Below are positions 377-12,892 of a DNA stretch of 34,435 nt, piece after piece (the first letter of the stretch is position 1; every line of letters starts with the position of its first letter). The notes beneath the pieces were generated by a model, which did not search any database, had not been told where the DNA came from, and saw nothing but the letters and a program-made list of their open reading frames with translations. Origin of the DNA: a virus. Location: IMG/VR virus record IMGVR_UViG_3300047494_000105, positions 1 through 34,435 of that record. One strand, written 5' to 3'. Position numbers and translations under genes: made by a program.

Positions 377-3124
377 TTATCGACTCTGCCAGACGCAGCC
401 GCCGGTGGTCGGCGACAGCGGCACGTCCACCACACTAAAGCTGCCGTTGGCCGGAACCGTCACCCCTACCGTCGAATAATCGACACCGTTGATCGTGTGT
501 GCGGATACATCGTTTTTGAGGGTCACGGGGTACACTGATTGCGAATTGTTGACCGTGTAGACTGCACCGGTCTGCCCCGTGCAATCCGGTAGGGTCAGCG
601 CAGTGGCTGCTGTTGGCTGCACGTTCACAAAACCGTCAGCATCAAGCATTTGATACGTGGTGGCGGTTACGATCGTGGGGTTCGCGGCATGGTGTCCGTA
701 GTAATAGTTGACTGTGTTGGCGGCGGCTCGCGCGATGAGTGTGTAGCCAGCATCTATGGGGTGAATGCCGTCGCCGCTGAAGTAAGTCGAGTTTGCATAG
801 GCCCCATCCGCACCCATCTGAGGGATGGCATTGAAGTCCATAATGCCGTCCGCACCCTCAGCTACGATACCTGTGCGAATGAGGGTGTTGTAGGCGTCCT
901 TGGCCGCGTCAAGGGTGATCCTGGAAATCATCGTGCCGGCAAAAACCTTGCATCCCGCCTGCTTCAGAATATGGACTTCGCTCTTTAGCTGGGCGTATAT
1001 CGCAGCCGCATTGCCTGCCCCTAGATCATTGGTTCCCGCAAAAACGAGAGCCACGCTGGCTCCGCCGGTGGTGGGGTTGCAATATTTTGCGATACGGTTT
1101 GGCTCAGATGCCGTCAGCGTCGATAGTTGGATTCCAGGGATACCCCAGTTGTAGACCGTGTAAGCAGGTTGGTTGAGAAGCAAAGGCTGCATCTTTACGA
1201 TGTAGGCCCCCGCGGCTCCGGGAGCGGAACTTCCCGCCCCATAGGTGATTGAGTCACCATCGCCGTGCATGATGGGTATTCCGACGTTGACGGCAACCGG
1301 CGTTGTCGGCACACCCCGGCCAGCCACATCGGCATTGAAGGCTTGCGTCAGTTGCACCACGTCCGAGGTGTTCGTCACCGAATTTGAATTGAGCTTCGTG
1401 CTGTAGACGCGCATGCGGTAAAACGTGGCAGACATACCCGTAAACAGTTGGGCAGTCGCCGCCGGACTCACGCCAAGGAATAGGTTTCCTGTCGTCGGCG
1501 CTGCCGTAGCGAAATTCCCGCCGCCGTAGTTGACCTCAGTGCCGTCGATGAAAAACTGATTGCTATCTCCACTGCCGGAGCCGCGCTGAATCGTGATGGT
1601 GTGATAGCCGGTCACTTCATTGATTGCCTGCGTAGATACGGAAGAGTAGGCGTATATGCCCAACTGGCCATAGGAAAGCCCAATGCCGTTGCCGTTCATA
1701 AAGACATTGAAGCCTGCGTATCCAAGTGAGCTCGATAAGAGAGGCATGAATGTACTGGGCGACGGCCTGGCTGGAACGCCGGGAATGGCGACCGTTGACT
1801 GCTCCGGATCGATGTACAGGGAGATGACGAACGTCTGCCCAGCGTTCAGCGCAGTAGGCAGCGAGACGTTCTGGGTGCCGCCGGCGAACCTCAGCCCGTT
1901 GCTCAGCCAGGTTGGGGCGTCGGATCCGGTGCCAAGGGTGCCGTTGCATGGCGCTCCAGAGCAGGCATTCGCTCCGCTGATGTCGGTGAGCACCGTGCCG
2001 GACTGCTGATAGAAGTTGTAGTCAGCAAGCAGATTGTTGGCCAGATCGCCGCTAATGACGGGGGGTAGCGGGTAGTTGGGCTGGTGCAGTACACCGGCTG
2101 CGATATAGGGCGTCGTGGCGGCATCGAGCGCAACGCTTGACGGAAAGTCTGTGGCGGGGTGCGCGGCTGCTGTGCCGAGGGTGTTACTGGTAGCCCCAGC
2201 GGGGAGTTGTACCGCTCCCTGCGCGGAGGTGGTTGCGGCAGCGACACTGGCTCCGGGCAGAGTTCCGGTCACATCCGCGCTGTTGAGGTTGACGGCGCGG
2301 GCCGCTCCATCTTGAACGCCGCTGGTGATGTGCTGGAAGCCGGTGCCGCTGGGCGGGGTGTAACTGCTGCCGCCGCCTCCCGCGGGGACTGCAAAGCTGC
2401 CGTCCTCGCGCAGATAGCGCGTGGTGCCTGCCGTTGCACCTGGGTCGGGTACAAGGCCAGCGGAGTGGCCAGAGCCGCTGGCGCCGAAGACGCTGGCGCT
2501 GCCGCCAGTCACCGCGACAAACACGCCGCCGACACAGGTGTAGAAGACGTGCGTTCCGCTGTTCGTGAAGACGCTGGGAGCGATGCAGCTGCTGGGCGTG
2601 GTACTGGCGATTGCTGCCTGCAGCGTGGCCGAGTTCGTAGTCTGCGCGGGTGGGCCGTAGTGGTCCAGCGGCCAGGTACTGCCGCTTACGCCCACCACGC
2701 CTTGCAGCGTGTAGCATCGGCCGCTGGTGCTGAGCCCGGTGCTGGTGTTGCAGACCTGCACCGAGTAGAGGATGTTTGCCGGGGTTGTTTGCGTCGCATC
2801 CGGAACGGCACACGTACCGCTGACCGTGGAGTCAGGCTGAATCTGGCCCGTGATGGCACCCGCGATCACCTTGCAGGAGAACGCGGTGGGGCCGTTCTGC
2901 GCGCCGCTTGCGTCGGCGAACGGAATGGGGATGCCGGAGCGGTCGACCGGGGTGAAGGTGACGGTGCCGGTGGTGATGGGAGCCCCGCCCATCTTGAGCG
3001 AGGATGCGGTGATGATGGTGGTCTGCGCGAAGACGGGCGCGGGGCTGCAACCCTTCGCGATGATACCGAGGATGACTAGTCCGCGCACGACGGCGCGAAC
3101 GGCTGCGGTGGGCAGTCGCTTCAT
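377..3124 (-). CDS. Fibre-like protein with signal peptide, LamG-like and SGNH-hydrolase domains
   Basis: This 915-residue protein ends the late operon. The N-terminus looks like a Sec signal peptide (basic MKR start, hydrophobic stretch, VFAQ cleavage-like site near residue 34). A Ser/Thr/Gly/Ala-rich fibre-like region follows to about residue 350. Residues about 365-585 look like a LamG/concanavalin-type jellyroll. Residues about 615-810 carry SGNH/GDSL-hydrolase blocks: GDSIT (nucleophile Ser, near 624), GTND (near 696) and DGIHP (Asp/His pair, near 785). The last ~90 residues are a beta-rich cap. The start has a good AGGAG site seven bases upstream. By position it is a tail fibre or receptor-degrading enzyme (esterase type on surface glycan). 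The signal peptide is unusual for a virion protein, so a secreted conversion factor is the alternative. Confidence 0.8.
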   Translation of the reverse strand: MKRLPTAAVRAVVRGLVILGIIAKGCSPAPVFAQTTIITASSLKMGGAPITTGTVTFTPVDRSGIPIPFADASGAQNGPTAFSCKVIAGAITGQIQPDSTVSGTCAVPDATQTTPANILYSVQVCNTSTGLSTSGRCYTLQGVVGVSGSTWPLDHYGPPAQTTNSATLQAAIASTTPSSCIAPSVFTNSGTHVFYTCVGGVFVAVTGGSASVFGASGSGHSAGLVPDPGATAGTTRYLREDGSFAVPAGGGGSSYTPPSGTGFQHITSGVQDGAARAVNLNSADVTGTLPGASVAAATTSAQGAVQLPAGATSNTLGTAAAHPATDFPSSVALDAATTPYIAAGVLHQPNYPLPPVISGDLANNLLADYNFYQQSGTVLTDISGANACSGAPCNGTLGTGSDAPTWLSNGLRFAGGTQNVSLPTALNAGQTFVISLYIDPEQSTVAIPGVPARPSPSTFMPLLSSSLGYAGFNVFMNGNGIGLSYGQLGIYAYSSVSTQAINEVTGYHTITIQRGSGSGDSNQFFIDGTEVNYGGGNFATAAPTTGNLFLGVSPAATAQLFTGMSATFYRMRVYSTKLNSNSVTNTSDVVQLTQAFNADVAGRGVPTTPVAVNVGIPIMHGDGDSITYGAGSSAPGAAGAYIVKMQPLLLNQPAYTVYNWGIPGIQLSTLTASEPNRIAKYCNPTTGGASVALVFAGTNDLGAGNAAAIYAQLKSEVHILKQAGCKVFAGTMISRITLDAAKDAYNTLIRTGIVAEGADGIMDFNAIPQMGADGAYANSTYFSGDGIHPIDAGYTLIARAAANTVNYYYGHHAANPTIVTATTYQMLDADGFVNVQPTAATALTLPDCTGQTGAVYTVNNSQSVYPVTLKNDVSAHTINGVDYSTVGVTVPANGSFSVVDVPLSPTTGGCVWQSR

Positions 3125-7999: not shown

Positions 8000-10729
8000 C
8001 TAGCGCGGACGGCGCAGGTAGGTCTCCTGCACGCGGCGCTGAGCGTCGGCTGAGCCCTGCGCTCGGGCCAGAGCCATGCCGTGCCGTATGCGGGCTTCGA
8101 CCTGCGCCGCGTCCGTGCCGCGCGCGTCGATAGTGTAAGAATCGCCGCCCTTGCCTCCGCTGAATGCGGCCATCATGTCCTCATGCGAGGTGACGTGGCC
8201 GCCGCCGGGGCCGGTGCGCATCAGCTCCGGCCCGCGCTCACCGACCATCACGAGCGAGTTGCCTGGCGGGTCGCCCCCATCCGCGAAGCCGGGAATCTTG
8301 AAGGCGTGCAGCAGCGGCGCGACGAGTTTGGCGAAGCCACCCTGCGGTCCGGAGGAACTATCGGAGTCGTCAGACCCGTCATCGTCACCCGAACCCATAC
8401 TGGAAACTTTGGGCATCAACGGGCCGTCTTTGCCGAAGAGCGATTTGCCTAGACCGGCGGCGCCGCTGCCGCCGACGACCTGAACATACAGAGCGGAGTC
8501 GGCAGAACTTCCGTCCTTCTTCTTGCCGCTACCAAAGCCGAACGCCTTCAGGCCCATGCCCTCGAACTGCTTGAGCGCCACGCCGGAAGCATTACCGAAG
8601 ATGTTGCCGCCCAGCTTCCGCCAGTCGCCCTTCTTCGCGGTGCCCTGTATCTCCTTTTCGATCTGCCCGTTGACGCCGTTGACCGTCGAGAGCGTAAAGC
8701 TCTTCATCTCGGCGGCTTTCTGACGAGTAGCACCGGCCAGCTCATCGAGCGCGTCAACAAAGCCCACGCCGAAGGATGATCCACCAGGGTTCAAGGCAGC
8801 GTTATCGCGATTCAACTGCAGGGCATGCTGACCCTTGAGATCGTCCATCCTTGCGTTGATCCGGGCCAGCACCTCCTCACGCTTCACCGTGTCTTCATAG
8901 GTGGCCTTCTCGGCCTTGGCGCGCTCTTCGGTCAGCCGCAGCAGCTCGGCCTGGTACGTCATCTCATGCAGCGCCGCCTCTTCCTGCGCCACCGCCGCCT
9001 GCGTTTTGGTTCGGCCTGCCTCGCGAGCGAGATCCAGCTCCTGCAGTTGGTCGCTTACGCGCTGCGCATGCGCCTCGGACTCATTCTGAGCGTCCTGCTT
9101 GATATCGTCCGCATGCGCATCGCCAGACCGCCACTTCGTGAGGCCTTCCTGCCCTTTGGCGAGAGCGGCGTTGCCGACGCTGGCGGGCTCTCCCTCGGCC
9201 CGCTTCAACATCTCGCGCCGGAATGCCGAACTCTCCTCAGCAATCTTTTTCTCATCGGCGGCGATCTTCTTTTCGATGGACAGAAACTCAGCAGAACCCT
9301 TCGTAAAGGCATCGATCCGCGCCTGCCAGAACTCGGCGTCAGCTTGCGCGGAGAGAAGCCCGCGCTTTGTCTCATCCTTCGCCCCAAGCTCCTCTTCCTT
9401 CGCCCGCTCCTCTTCCATCTTGCGATAGAGCTCTTCGGCAGCTTTATTACCGCCTACACTATCTTGCTTCAAGGCACCGACAGTTGCGCGCTTGGAAGTA
9501 ATGCTCGAATCGAGCGACACAACGGTCTGGCGGTCCTGTAGCTGCGAAATATAGCCTTCGACGTTTGCGAGCTTAGCGTCATTCCTGATCGGATTGACAG
9601 CTACATTGCCGCTTCGTTCGACCGCTTCAGCGTTCGCTTCGCTTGATGACTGTTCGTCTCGCAGCCGCTTCGCTTCGCGCTTGTAGTTATCGATCTCCGC
9701 CTGGATGCGTGCGTTGACCGCCGCAGTATTTTTTTCTTGAATGGCTTTCTGAGCGGCGGGGTCCGATACGCCGGCCATGGCCTTCAAAGTCTCGGCGTTG
9801 ATGGCCCGGATGTCTTGCGTGAGCCTCTTTTGATCCGCAAGCAGCTCCGATGACTGTTTGCCGGTGCCCGCAACCCCGGTGATCGCGGCGCCAAAAATAC
9901 CAACACTGTTTTCTTTCAGCAGGGCGGTCAACTCTTTGTTATCCGCCTTGAGTGATTCCAGCAGGCTATCCGCCATCTTGCGGGCTTCGTCGAGTGATGT
10001 CTTGAGGCCGTCGCCAGGGTGGCCACCCAGCTTGTCGATCTCATCCTGCAGTTTATCGTTGGTGATACTGAGATCATCGATGTTGATCTGATTCTTATCG
10101 TGAATCTCGGCGAACGCCTCGCGAGTGGTGGTGGCGGCCTTCGCCGCCTTGCTCCCAAACTCGTAAATCTTTTCCCCTAAGTTTACAAATAGGCCCGCAA
10201 GTCCCAGTGCGCCGATGATGGGAAATATCGTCTGGAGCGCCGCTCCCATACCCGGAATCGTCGTGATAAAGCGCTCGATGGAGCGGATGCCGGGATTGCC
10301 TTCGAGCGAGCGGATGGCAGCCGAGGCCGCGATCGTCTGCGAGGTAGCCGATTCCGCAGCGACGGCTTCCACCTTGCTCGCTTCGGCCGTCGCCAAGCGG
10401 GCTGCAGTAAGACGCTGCAACGCAGCTGCTGTCAACTGAGCGCCCTGCGCTTCGTCTACGTGGCCTTGCCGCGTAAGAGCGAGGGCCTTGCGATAATCCT
10501 TGCTCGCAGCCGCCTCATTGTTGATGGCCGCGATGATTTTTAGACTCTGCTCGGTGACGACTTCGCCCGCGAGCTTCGCAGCCAGTTGCTGGGCCGCCGC
10601 GCCCTGCTTGGCCGCTTTCTCGATGGCGCGGCCGGTCGCCGTAGCAACCTCTGCGGATTTCTTGTTTGCCGCATCCAGCGAAGAGTTATCGCCGCGGAGC
10701 CGAAATGTTACGTCGTCATTGTTTGGCAT
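8000..10729 (-). CDS. Tail tape measure protein
   Basis: This 909-residue protein is mostly helical and rich in Ala, Glu, Lys and Gln with long coiled-coil stretches (about 15-110 and 330-640). A hydrophobic segment near 155-190 (IPGMGAALQTIFPIIGALGLAGLFVNLG) is typical of tape measures, and the C-terminal part is Gly/Ser-rich with a conserved end (FADGGDPPGNSLVMVGERGPELM). It sets tail length. At roughly 1.5 angstrom per residue it predicts a tail near 130-140 nm (an estimate from the family rule). The start forms a TGATG junction with the upstream gene. Confidence 0.92.
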   Translation of the reverse strand: MPNNDDVTFRLRGDNSSLDAANKKSAEVATATGRAIEKAAKQGAAAQQLAAKLAGEVVTEQSLKIIAAINNEAAASKDYRKALALTRQGHVDEAQGAQLTAAALQRLTAARLATAEASKVEAVAAESATSQTIAASAAIRSLEGNPGIRSIERFITTIPGMGAALQTIFPIIGALGLAGLFVNLGEKIYEFGSKAAKAATTTREAFAEIHDKNQINIDDLSITNDKLQDEIDKLGGHPGDGLKTSLDEARKMADSLLESLKADNKELTALLKENSVGIFGAAITGVAGTGKQSSELLADQKRLTQDIRAINAETLKAMAGVSDPAAQKAIQEKNTAAVNARIQAEIDNYKREAKRLRDEQSSSEANAEAVERSGNVAVNPIRNDAKLANVEGYISQLQDRQTVVSLDSSITSKRATVGALKQDSVGGNKAAEELYRKMEEERAKEEELGAKDETKRGLLSAQADAEFWQARIDAFTKGSAEFLSIEKKIAADEKKIAEESSAFRREMLKRAEGEPASVGNAALAKGQEGLTKWRSGDAHADDIKQDAQNESEAHAQRVSDQLQELDLAREAGRTKTQAAVAQEEAALHEMTYQAELLRLTEERAKAEKATYEDTVKREEVLARINARMDDLKGQHALQLNRDNAALNPGGSSFGVGFVDALDELAGATRQKAAEMKSFTLSTVNGVNGQIEKEIQGTAKKGDWRKLGGNIFGNASGVALKQFEGMGLKAFGFGSGKKKDGSSADSALYVQVVGGSGAAGLGKSLFGKDGPLMPKVSSMGSGDDDGSDDSDSSSGPQGGFAKLVAPLLHAFKIPGFADGGDPPGNSLVMVGERGPELMRTGPGGGHVTSHEDMMAAFSGGKGGDSYTIDARGTDAAQVEARIRHGMALARAQGSADAQRRVQETYLRRPR

Positions 10730-11211
10730 CAGCTCAGGACCTCTTTGTAGGATTTCTTCAGACTTGCTTCGACAGCCGCGCCAGCTTCGGCGATGCTGCC
10801 CTCAAACGCTGGGCGCAGGAACGGATAGGCGGGAACATCAGCGCCTGCTTTGCCGGGACCGCGCGTCTTGCCGTCAGCCATCACCTTGGAGTAACCGCCG
10901 GATACTTGCCGGTGGCCGTATTCGATCCAGCGGGCAACGTGCGCCGTCTTCGCGTTTGGCCCGATCAGCGCCTGCGGTTGCTCTTCATCCTGCGGGACGT
11001 AGACGCGGATGCCATCGCGCAGGGCACCAGGCTCCAACGCGGTGCTGTTTTGCGTCCGCTTGTCCAGCACGGGCGCTCGCTCAACCATCGCTTCCTTGAT
11101 TACCTTGCCGCCGACACGGAGCGCCTTGCGCATCTCCGTGTTGCCCATCTGCGCACCAGCATTCTCGAGCTTGGCGATGCATTTAGTGAGCCCTTCGATC
11201 TGCACTTCCAT
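10729..11211 (-). CDS. HK97-gp10-like head-tail/neck protein
   Basis: This 160-residue protein has the usual features of the HK97 gp10-like family (related to lambda gpZ): an N-terminal helix MEVQIEGLTKCIAKLENAG, KALRVGGKVIKEAMVERAPV, a core LIGPNAKTAHVARWIEYGHR and the C-terminal PAYPFLRPAFEGS. Members take part in tail completion. The gene normally lies before the major tail protein. Here it lies after the tail chaperones and directly before the tape measure, behind a terminator, which is an unusual order. Its stop overlaps the tape-measure start by one base. Confidence 0.85.
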   Translation of the reverse strand: MEVQIEGLTKCIAKLENAGAQMGNTEMRKALRVGGKVIKEAMVERAPVLDKRTQNSTALEPGALRDGIRVYVPQDEEQPQALIGPNAKTAHVARWIEYGHRQVSGGYSKVMADGKTRGPGKAGADVPAYPFLRPAFEGSIAEAGAAVEASLKKSYKEVLS

Positions 11212-11293: not shown

Positions 11294-11563
11294 TTACGCT
11301 GGCTTTTTACTCCCAGCGCCAATCAGGGCGATTCCCGCGATAAAGAAGACAGCAGCGCCAATGCCTTCGTGCTGCTCGGCGGCTTTGCGTTCGTCAGCTT
11401 CACGCGACGCCTGCTGCAGTCCAAGCTCATCGTGAGCGCGAATCATCGCAAAACCATCGCTTATACGCCCCGCAGCACCATTCGCATCATCATAGATTGC
11501 ATTGAAACAGATGATTCCGAACACAACTCCAGCAACTATAGAAAGCCATCCGGCCATCTTCAT
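11294..11563 (-). CDS. Small two-helix membrane protein, possible moron
   Basis: This 89-residue protein has two predicted membrane segments: residues about 4-24 (GWLSIVAGVVFGIICFNAIY) and 66-83 (GIGAAVFFIAGIALIGAG), separated by a charged region and ending in a basic GSKKPA tail. I recognise no family. A GAGGTG-type ribosome site precedes the ATG. It sits between the chaperone GT frame and a terminator. Membrane proteins in the middle of tail genes are often accessory (moron) genes, for example superinfection exclusion factors; this is inference from context. Confidence 0.65.
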   Translation of the reverse strand: MKMAGWLSIVAGVVFGIICFNAIYDDANGAAGRISDGFAMIRAHDELGLQQASREADERKAAEQHEGIGAAVFFIAGIALIGAGSKKPA

Positions 11564-11588: not shown

Positions 11589-12334
11589 CTACGGTTTCTT
11601 CACGCCGCGCATGGCCGTTCTGCCCATCGTCATCGCATCGCGGAGTTTTTCAACGAGTATCTGCTCGCGCTGTGCCTTCGTCTGGCGCTTCTTCTTGGGC
11701 TGCTTTGCCCAGTGTGACGGCATGACATCGCGCGGGGCGATGGGATGCTTGTAGCCAGCGAGCGAGGTGTTGTGGACGGTGGCGATGAGCTGCGCGACCA
11801 TGACCTCGACCATCTCATCCCGGCGCTTGAGTGCCCGCTCATGTCCGCGGACGAACCGCCAGAACAGACCTGGACGCAAGCGCATGAGGTGTTCGGGAGT
11901 CAGGTTATGATCGTTGTGGGCACAATCGAGCAGTATATCCCACGTCCATGCGAGCCCGGCTACTCTCCGGGCTCGGGAGGGTTTTTTTCTTCCTTCGAGC
12001 CATCATCGTGGCTTAGCGCCCAGGCCTTATTGACAGCTAGCAGCACTTCATGAGCGTTATAAGGGGTCAGCCAATCCATCGTAGCCTCAAACAGCAGCTC
12101 AGGATGGTAGACGTGCAGCGAGGCTGCAAACAGCACCCGCAGCGTCGCGAACGTCCTGACGATGAGGCCTTGGAGCAGGTTGACGTCATAGCCTTGATTT
12201 CGCAGACTAATCTCCGCCATCGCAAGAGCCGCAAAGCTGAAGCACATCTTATAGGTATTGCCCTCGATTACGATCTCGGTGAAGGGGTACATTACTTGGT
12301 CGACGGCTGGAGACTTGACTTTACGTGTGGCCAT
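11589..12334 (-). CDS. Tail assembly chaperone GT fusion made by -1 frameshift
   Basis: The G frame (start 12334) contains A AAA AAC in register at 11981-11987. A -1 slip there avoids the stop at 11960-11962 and enters a second frame that is open from the slip site to 11589, giving about 248 residues (118 from G, 130 from the T part). The T part begins PSRARRVAGLAWTWDILL and continues with MRLRPGLFWRFVRGHERALKRRDEM and a basic KKKRQTKAQREQ region. In lambda-type phages the GT protein binds the tape measure through its T domain, and its low ratio to G matters for tail assembly. The internal ATG at 11885 has no convincing ribosome site. Confidence 0.88.
11951..11987 (-). promoter_or_regulatory. 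Programmed -1 frameshift signal (slippery heptamer plus hairpin)
   Basis: On the minus strand, A AAA AAC (11987-11981, in the zero frame as GAA AAA AAC) is followed after a 5-nt spacer by a perfect 9-bp GC-rich stem: CGAGCCCGG (11967-11975 as read) and CCGGGCTCG (11951-11959), with a 7-nt loop that contains the zero-frame stop TAG. Heptamer, spacer and stimulatory stem all fit the known rules for G/GT frameshifting. Confidence 0.93.
11960..12334 (-). CDS. Tail assembly chaperone G
   Basis: This 124-residue protein is made when no frameshift occurs. It is helical with conserved-looking aromatic and hydrophobic positions (FTEIVIEGNTYKMCFSFAALAMAEISLRNQG, reported here only in part as a beta hairpin followed by a helix) and ends in an acidic, Pro-rich tail just past the slippery site. 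It lies between major tail protein and tape measure, the place of lambda G. The protein coats the tape measure during tail building and is absent from the virion in known systems. Confidence 0.85.
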   Translation of the reverse strand: MATRKVKSPAVDQVMYPFTEIVIEGNTYKMCFSFAALAMAEISLRNQGYDVNLLQGLIVRTFATLRVLFAASLHVYHPELLFEATMDWLTPYNAHEVLLAVNKAWALSHDDGSKEEKNPPEPGE

Positions 12335-12427: not shown

Positions 12428-12892
12428 CTAGCTGCCGATGGTCTCGATGGGCGCGGAGTCGTACTGGAGGTCGAAGTTGAAGTCCACGTAGGCTTCCGGC
12501 TTGATGTCGCCATCGGTCATCAACACGTAGGCCGAGAAGGTGTAGCTGTCGCCAACGGTCGTCTGGCCGGCGTTGGGGTTCGGCGGGAGCTGCACCTTGA
12601 AGTCATACGGCTGCGCGGAGAGGTACGCGGCGCGCACGAGCGTCTGACCGGGGTCGTTCGAGACGCGGGTGCATTTGACCGAGAGCTTCGTCAGGGCCTT
12701 GATGACAGGCGCAGCGCTCTCCACGGTGGACTGCAGATGGGTCGTGGGCGTGGTCTTCCACTCCGGCATCTTGTTGGGCAGGTCTAGAATCTCGCCGATA
12801 GGCGTATAGCTGCTGCTGGGCGTATCGCTGGTGGGGCTGCCGATGCTGAGCAGCGACCCGAGGCCCGACTGTCCCTTTGAGTTCTTTGCCAT
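12428..12892 (-). CDS. Major tail (tube) protein
   Basis: This 154-residue, acidic, beta-rich protein has phrases usual for tail tube proteins: YTPIGEILDLP near residues 30-40, TTHLQSTVESAAPVIKAL (a loop/helix) near 50-68, and a C-terminal sheet with YTFSAYVLMTDGDIKPE. It would polymerise into the hexameric rings of the tail tube. It lies between the tail-terminator-like gene and the G/GT chaperones as in lambda (gene V position). The ATG is preceded by an AGGAGAACATC-type ribosome site. Confidence 0.8.
   Translation of the reverse strand: MAKNSKGQSGLGSLLSIGSPTSDTPSSSYTPIGEILDLPNKMPEWKTTPTTHLQSTVESAAPVIKALTKLSVKCTRVSNDPGQTLVRAAYLSAQPYDFKVQLPPNPNAGQTTVGDSYTFSAYVLMTDGDIKPEAYVDFNFDLQYDSAPIETIGS

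Follow-up and report, generated by a model that had tools for sequence, protein, structure and literature searches.

The stretch of soil-phage DNA analysed here (the window; IMG/VR record IMGVR_UViG_3300047494_000105, 34,435 bases) carries all of its head and tail genes on the minus strand. In the order of that strand, a major tail protein-like gene (12892..12428; phrog_158, E 1.1e-8) is followed by two overlapping reading frames, G and T, by an 89-aa ORF (11294..11563) with two hydrophobic stretches and no family match in the profile search, by an HK97-gp10-like gene (10729..11211; PF04883, phrog_5), and by a 909-aa ORF (10729..8000) presumed to be the tape measure gene from its size, its place and its homology to large ORFs of relatives. 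The G/T pair sits between the major tail protein and the tape measure protein, with two genes intervening before the latter. The HK97-gp10-like gene is placed between T and the tape measure gene and not with the head-tail connector genes, a position conserved in the relatives L005, L007, L010, L015, L017 and L018. At the tail end of the cluster, a 915-aa protein (377..3124, minus strand) contains a GDSL lipase/acylhydrolase domain (PF13472, E 2.8e-11) and may be a tail-borne enzyme directed at the cell surface.

G encodes 124 residues (11960..12334, minus strand) and ends with the stop codon TAG at 11962-11960. An earlier note, made from the letters of the window alone, had claimed that the –1 frame is open to the end of the downstream ORF, and this is the case: the frame runs without a stop from 12002 down to the stop codon ending at 11589 on the minus strand. 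T, the –1-frame extension, consists of 130 codons from CCC at 11981 plus a stop codon (11589..11981, minus strand), and the sequence of G up to Asn118 joined to the 130 residues of T gives a GT product of 248 aa. T might instead be a separate gene, begun at its first in-frame ATG (11883..11885, minus strand) or at a non-ATG codon, and ORF callers would indeed give 11885..11589 as a gene. This ATG is an unlikely start, as it falls at residue 23 of that domain and helix 1 lies ahead of it; no ATG, GTG or TTG lies ahead of it in the T of the window sequence. Three of the five residues of T that are invariant in the alignment (W4, A11 and L17) and the helix formed by residues 4-15 of the AlphaFold model precede it, and a T begun at ATG 11885 would lose part of its domain, including the first helix.

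The family matches of both frames are weak. Window G matches phrog_2115 'tail protein' (E 7.2e-5), as do all nine G homologues, three of which match PF11836 (Phage_TAC_11). Window T gives a weak match to PF06223 (Phage_tail_T; E 0.0018, under the curated Pfam cut-off) and also matches phrog_337 'tail', and its homologues match PF09550 (Phage_TAC_6) in 3/9 cases and PF06223 in 3/9. AlphaFold models of G and T are of moderate confidence (mean pLDDT 79 each). The G model consists of an ordered core and about 14 disordered residues at the end, and the slip described below lies at this disordered C-terminal end, which fits the expected linker. Comparison of the G fold with the PDB gave no match; matches among the predicted viral proteins of BFVD are weak (best E 5.7e-3), and several of them bear the name of a tail assembly chaperone or a tail tube protein.

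Near the 3′ end of G, the codons GAA AAA AAC CCT put two overlapping heptamers in the zero frame. The first, A_AAA_AAC (11981..11987, minus strand), was named in the earlier note and is exact base for base; it falls inside the –1 open stretch, and in the zero frame it is rare, with 11 occurrences in 500,526 codons of ORFs of at least 300 aa from the fetched loci (background codon counts were taken from ORFs of at least 300 or at least 400 aa and may include some shadow frames). The second, A_AAC_CCT (11978..11984, minus strand), shares four bases with the first, giving the ten-base stretch A_AAA_AAC_CCT, and belongs to the type carried by most of the group described below. A slip at either site resumes at TCC in the –1 frame and gives the same junction peptide, EEKNPSRARR, so that mass spectrometry could prove GT but not tell the two sites apart.

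Downstream of the first heptamer, a 5-nt spacer (CCTCC, 11980-11976) leads into a stem in which CGAGCCCGG (11975-11967) pairs with CCGGGCTCG (11959-11951) over 9 bp with no mismatch, enclosing the loop AGAGTAG; the perfect stem, its distance and the G stop codon within its loop are all as the earlier note had described them. This candidate stimulatory hairpin (11951..11975, minus strand) begins 5 nt after A_AAA_AAC, where its energy is –17.9 kcal/mol, and 2 nt after CCT, while the inner 6-bp core of the stem (11972-11967 with 11959-11954; –11.0 kcal/mol) begins 5 nt after CCT. A segment of 90 nt beginning at 11989 has a folding energy of –29.8 kcal/mol (z –2.76), a value equalled by none of 200 shuffles, and of 50 control points in window G and T, about 3% had an equally good hairpin starting 2-9 nt downstream. 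On the other side, the SD-like AAGGA (11991..11995, minus strand) is a candidate 5′ stimulator in view of the group-wide enrichment of SD-like motifs, and stands 6-7 nt upstream of A_AAC_CCT and 3-4 nt upstream of A_AAA_AAC. For A_AAA_AAC it is thus outside the 6-17 nt range searched for SD sequences in PMC4066793; as the SD is an optional element, A_AAA_AAC may belong to the canonical class all the same.

Read on the plus strand, the same hairpin is followed by GGAGGGTTTTTTTC and is included in a terminator scan, and hairpin and T-run could together form an intrinsic terminator of that strand and no frameshift signal. The chance of this appears next to negligible, given that the scan counts 9 terminator-like sites in the window and shuffles give 7.4 ± 2.9, that the head and tail genes all lie on the minus strand, and that the hairpin is kept in relatives and the T-run is not.

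No relatives were recovered when IMG/VR and 50,697 named phage records were queried directly with window G, T and major tail protein, and the T and G of L015 had no match among named phages. Relatives were reached via the major capsid protein, the G of L004 and the HK97-gp10-like protein. The capsid protein search led to 111 loci, 31 of them with a G/T pair in two frames, and in all 31 T is in the –1 frame. A later set of 80 pairs (80 of 335 relatives, among the matches listed) was reduced to 48 at 90% identity. Near copies (L044, L051, L074 and L144) were removed, and the counts exclude L043, an in-frame fusion, as well as L014, L025, L026 and L109, in which G was matched without a T match. 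The combined set comprises 85 non-redundant pairs from related phages and prophages. Acidobacteria MAGs show the greatest capsid identity among the cellular contigs found (L091, 62%; L090, 59%), from which the host is probably a member of the Acidobacteriota. An Acidobacteriota prophage with this module, its site reading GAC CCT, is present in the genome G253.

T is in the –1 frame in 85/85 pairs of the combined set, a constancy that would not be expected of a gene of its own. In 23 of the first 31 pairs, moreover, there is no ATG, GTG or TTG in the interval that reaches from 60 nt ahead of the T domain start to 30 nt beyond it. A separately initiated T is therefore highly improbable, even though the T homologue of gene transfer agents (PF09550) often has its own ATG. 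Since T is in the –1 frame in every pair, has no early start of its own and stands in a gene order typical of tail chaperones, the reading proposed in the earlier note, that of a G/GT tail chaperone pair made by –1 frameshifting, is the best one and is strongly supported by comparison. In L043 (14194-15240), a single frame encodes G fused to T, and a second, separate G gene comes after it, an arrangement that constitutes a natural frameshift-free route to both proteins; this same arrangement is mentioned for T4-like phages by the authors of PRFect (PMC10885494).

The slip site used by most of these pairs appears to be a different one from the A-rich heptamer. A zero-frame C_CCY is present in 73 of the 85 pairs (61 CCT and 12 CCC), mostly as G_GAC_CCU or A_AAC_CCU. 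The survey reached back 310 nt before the G stop, and 70 of the 73 sites lie within 75 nt of it; within these 75 nt, C_CCY occurs in the zero frame in 70/85 pairs and in the other two phases in 4 and 15. Against this count of 70, 1000 codon-order shuffles gave a mean of 35.7 (maximum 48) and 1000 synonymous redraws a mean of 27.1 (maximum 40); since neither ever reached 70, a proline-rich tail and its peptide do not explain C_CCY. Among the first 31 pairs, C|CCT was in the zero frame in 23 and in the other phases in 0 and 1, compared with 43/2,497 in control windows of G. The sets collected after the motif had been noticed show it in 8/9 (G253, G386, G002, G077, L129, L141, L147 and L154, with L156 as the pair without it) and in 42/48 further non-redundant pairs.

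The bases ahead of the proline codon are also constrained. At the 73 sites, the codon preceding CCY is GAC in 37, AAC in 25, CAC in 5 and another codon in 6; an A stands ahead of AAC in 25/25 cases (background 407/3,211) and a G ahead of GAC in 27/37 (background 800/3,201). A_AAC_CCY formally fits the pattern X_XXY_YYZ and G_GAC_CCY does not, and in our reading of the latter the main event is a CCY-to-CCC slip of the Pro-tRNA, assisted in part by the preceding codon. G_GAC_CCU stands without any A-run in L199 and L203. In L034, L041, L091 and L230, a TGA stop of the –1 frame lies directly ahead of CCC, so that the open frame starts with the slip codon itself. In L004, L195 and L196, the –1 frame is open for just 13 nt ahead of the G stop, and the site lies within them; the codon before CCT is GGC, GAC and AAC, respectively, and CCT is constant.

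Each of the 12 pairs without C_CCY has a canonical X_XXA_AAN heptamer instead, consisting of an A-run (L020, L054, L069 and L219), CCCAAAC (L021, L023 and L156), CCCAAAA (L214, L216 and L222) or GGGAAAA (L235 and L237), and an A/T-type heptamer in addition to C_CCY was found in only 5/73. In L214, L216 and L222 the sequence reads GAC CCA AAA, the place of GAC-Pro being now occupied by the canonical heptamer C_CCA_AAA, and these three suggest a one-step exchange between the two types of slip site. The predominance of C_CCY also bears on the view that the frame is shifted by transcriptional slippage on the A7 run of the window (11988-11982). A-runs are able to slip and this one has 7 A, but the description of such slippage in PMC5009743 is of runs of 9 A or T, and the 73/85 pairs with C_CCY mostly lack a run and have ribosome-type stimulators on both sides, which makes transcriptional slippage extremely improbable.

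These stimulators have preferred positions. A test of hairpin strength by exact offset, developed with the earlier set and reapplied to new sites, gave a maximum 5-8 nt after C_CCY for 30 early sites (50-53% below –8 kcal/mol; control 10.7%) and at 5-7 nt for 42 further sites (69% below –8 kcal/mol at 6 nt; control 10.7%); for the 12 canonical sites the maximum lies at 4-9 nt. The signal is seen in this offset test only: the folding energy of the whole 55-nt downstream stretch did not stand out in the group (mean z –0.14, n = 29), a test that performs poorly because competing folds hide a hairpin at a fixed place. Upstream, an SD-like 4-mer ending 4-12 nt ahead of C_CCY is found at 48/73 sites vs. 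9.3 expected, with a peak at about 7-10 nt, and by set in 19/31 early pairs, 29/42 later pairs and 4/12 with canonical heptamers. Judged by these sequence measures, the signal of the group is a dnaX-like predicted three-part one (SD, slip site and hairpin), centred on the proline site. Occlusion of the stop codon by the hairpin, which the earlier note took to make the signal compact and complete, carries over to the nearest relatives of the window, where a stop in the loop is the rule, and does not extend to the wider set, in which 9/34 best hairpins hold the stop (34 of 37 pairs used); as a defining feature it was dropped.

Both sites at once, as A_AAA_AAC_CCT, occur in the window and in L254. 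In the G+T tree the window falls inside a clade of 31 rows (SH-aLRT 97), all 31 with C_CCY, and the two rows with the double site are placed apart. The capsid tree and the G+T tree give the window different neighbours, and these carry C_CCY in both. One relative, L197, reads GCA AAC CCT, with A_AAC_CCT alone; it has the same core stem as the window (GCCCG/CGGGC), 5 nt after CCT and with TAG in the loop. Sites of the L204 type likewise read GCA AAC CCT. The window differs from L197 by the A-run and by the outer pairs CGA/TCG, which move the stem to 5 nt from A_AAA_AAC, and on this comparison the A-run looks like an addition in the lineage of the window, accompanied by three outer stem pairs that give the new site its 5-nt spacer. 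By these alignments the usual site of the group is the proline site and not A_AAA_AAC, and the description of A_AAA_AAC as the textbook signal of the locus is thus right as to its presence and incomplete in that it missed the overlapping A_AAC_CCT and the AAGGA.

Which of the stacked sites would work is indicated by the spacing of the stimulators. A_AAC_CCT fits the site pattern of the group, with a zero-frame C_CCY, RAC ahead of it, an SD at 6-7 nt and a stem that starts at 2 nt in full and at 5 nt for its inner 6 bp. SD spacing favours A_AAC_CCT and full-stem spacing favours A_AAA_AAC, and both sites of the window are accordingly held likely to work. As counterpoints, AAGGA is closer to A_AAA_AAC than the usual SD spacing, and the full hairpin is nearer to CCT than the 5-8 nt of the group. 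The hairpin spacing, together with the absence of C_CCY in 12/12 lineages that have other canonical heptamers, would agree with A_AAA_AAC working alone and the adjoining CCT being a relic of the proline site of the group. We regard this as possible without favouring it, because the SD-like motif has its proper distance from A_AAC_CCT and the inner 6 bp are still 5 nt after CCT, as in L197. That A_AAC_CCT alone works, as in the relatives, with the additional A residues being incidental, seems unlikely: A_AAA_AAC is a recognised heptamer, rare by chance, which arose again at the same place in L254 and substitutes for C_CCY in L069 and L219, notwithstanding the group-wide conservation of C_CCY with its SD and hairpin spacing and the position of the window in a clade where every row has C_CCY.

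A programmed –1 ribosomal frameshift in A_AAA_AAC_CCT, near the end of G, thus very probably makes G and GT. The elements and their conservation are read directly from the sequences; that slippage takes place, in what ratio, how much each site contributes to it and what G and T do is inferred from them as follows. The majority of ribosomes would reach TAG and release G, while some, paused by the hairpin and perhaps also by the SD-like AAGGA, would slip one base back in A_AAA_AAC_CCT and produce GT, yielding two tail assembly chaperones in a set ratio. A slip at the first site would use the Lys and Asn tRNAs, and one at the second the Asn and Pro tRNAs, with the Pro tRNA moving from CCU to CCC. 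If the two proteins act as their lambda counterparts do, the tape measure protein would be coated by G, and T would bring in the major tail protein.

The –1 frameshifting of phage tail chaperones is well documented (PMC5009743, PMC10885494, PMC3711429, PMC6316719, PMC11749239), and lambda gpG/gpGT is reviewed in PMC5009743, which cites Xu et al. 2004, with many phages that have the same –1 frameshift. The window shares with lambda a small ORF after the major tail protein, a –1-frame T without its own start, a slip near the end of G and the PF06223 match, weak here; it differs in the slip sequence, G_GGA_AAG in lambda vs. C_CCY in most of this group, and in the 89-aa ORF and HK97-gp10-like gene between T and the tape measure gene. 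The tripartite –1 signal of dnaX (PMC3711429) has the same upstream SD-like motif, slip site and downstream hairpin, whereas the signals described here give a longer fusion product, use mostly a proline slip and have an SD spacing of 6-11 nt.

The slip sequences themselves have precedents. Sharma et al. list C_CC.U and C_CC.C among six shift-prone tetramers in E. coli, C_CCA and C_CCG being weak (PMC4066793), and the phages keep the same choice of CCT and CCC, with A_AA.C_CC.U heptamers common to both. The values in PMC4066793 come from synthetic IS3 cassettes, in which a tetramer combined with a strong pseudoknot reached 5.6% at best, and the IS1/IS3 tetramers it lists are of the A and U types; A_AA.A_AA.C is termed there a low-efficiency motif in IS elements. 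Slipping on a proline codon in tail genes is also described for SPP1 gp17.1* (CCC_UAA; PMC6316719) and a Listeria phage (CCC_UGA; PMC5009743), but those shifts are +1, at the stop codon and in major tail protein genes, whereas the shift proposed here is –1, in the chaperone gene and away from the stop.

In outgroup named phages, A_AAA_AAC lies directly before the stop in Halomonas phage vB_HmeY_H4907 and Variovorax phage VarioGold, and G_GGA_AAC directly before the stop in Vibrio phage Vaitephage. Gene transfer agents (g10/g10.1, PF11836/PF09550) were rejected as members of the group, as they show no C_CCT pattern and their T usually starts from its own ATG; their G ORFs were located by a simple frame search, with some loci misassigned. 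In the gene transfer agent clusters L161-L191, the PF09550 T homologue is usually found at its own ATG, which suggests that the frameshift has been lost in these agents. The open-access literature searched yielded no large phage group whose main conserved tail-chaperone slip site is a proline site.

The G/GT frameshift is of an ordinary kind, and what is new is the stacked sites of the window and the proline site of the group. Taken together, the comparisons make it probable that a proline –1 site, N_RAC_CCY, flanked by an SD and a hairpin, is the standard in a large phage group whose hosts are probably Acidobacteriota and related bacteria, that canonical heptamers have taken its place on several occasions, and that the window, which nests both sites, is a likely intermediate of such an exchange. 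Tools for finding tail-chaperone frameshifts look for X_XXY_YYZ or related run patterns. The backward motifs listed for PRFect are built on nucleotide runs (PMC10885494), so that most G_GAC_CCU cases would probably escape them, with T annotated as a separate or shortened gene. The 85 aligned natural signals offer a ready test of –1 slipping by the Pro tRNA and of the contribution of the preceding codon, and the window, as a natural double site, bears on how a recoding site may be replaced in evolution without loss of the fusion protein.
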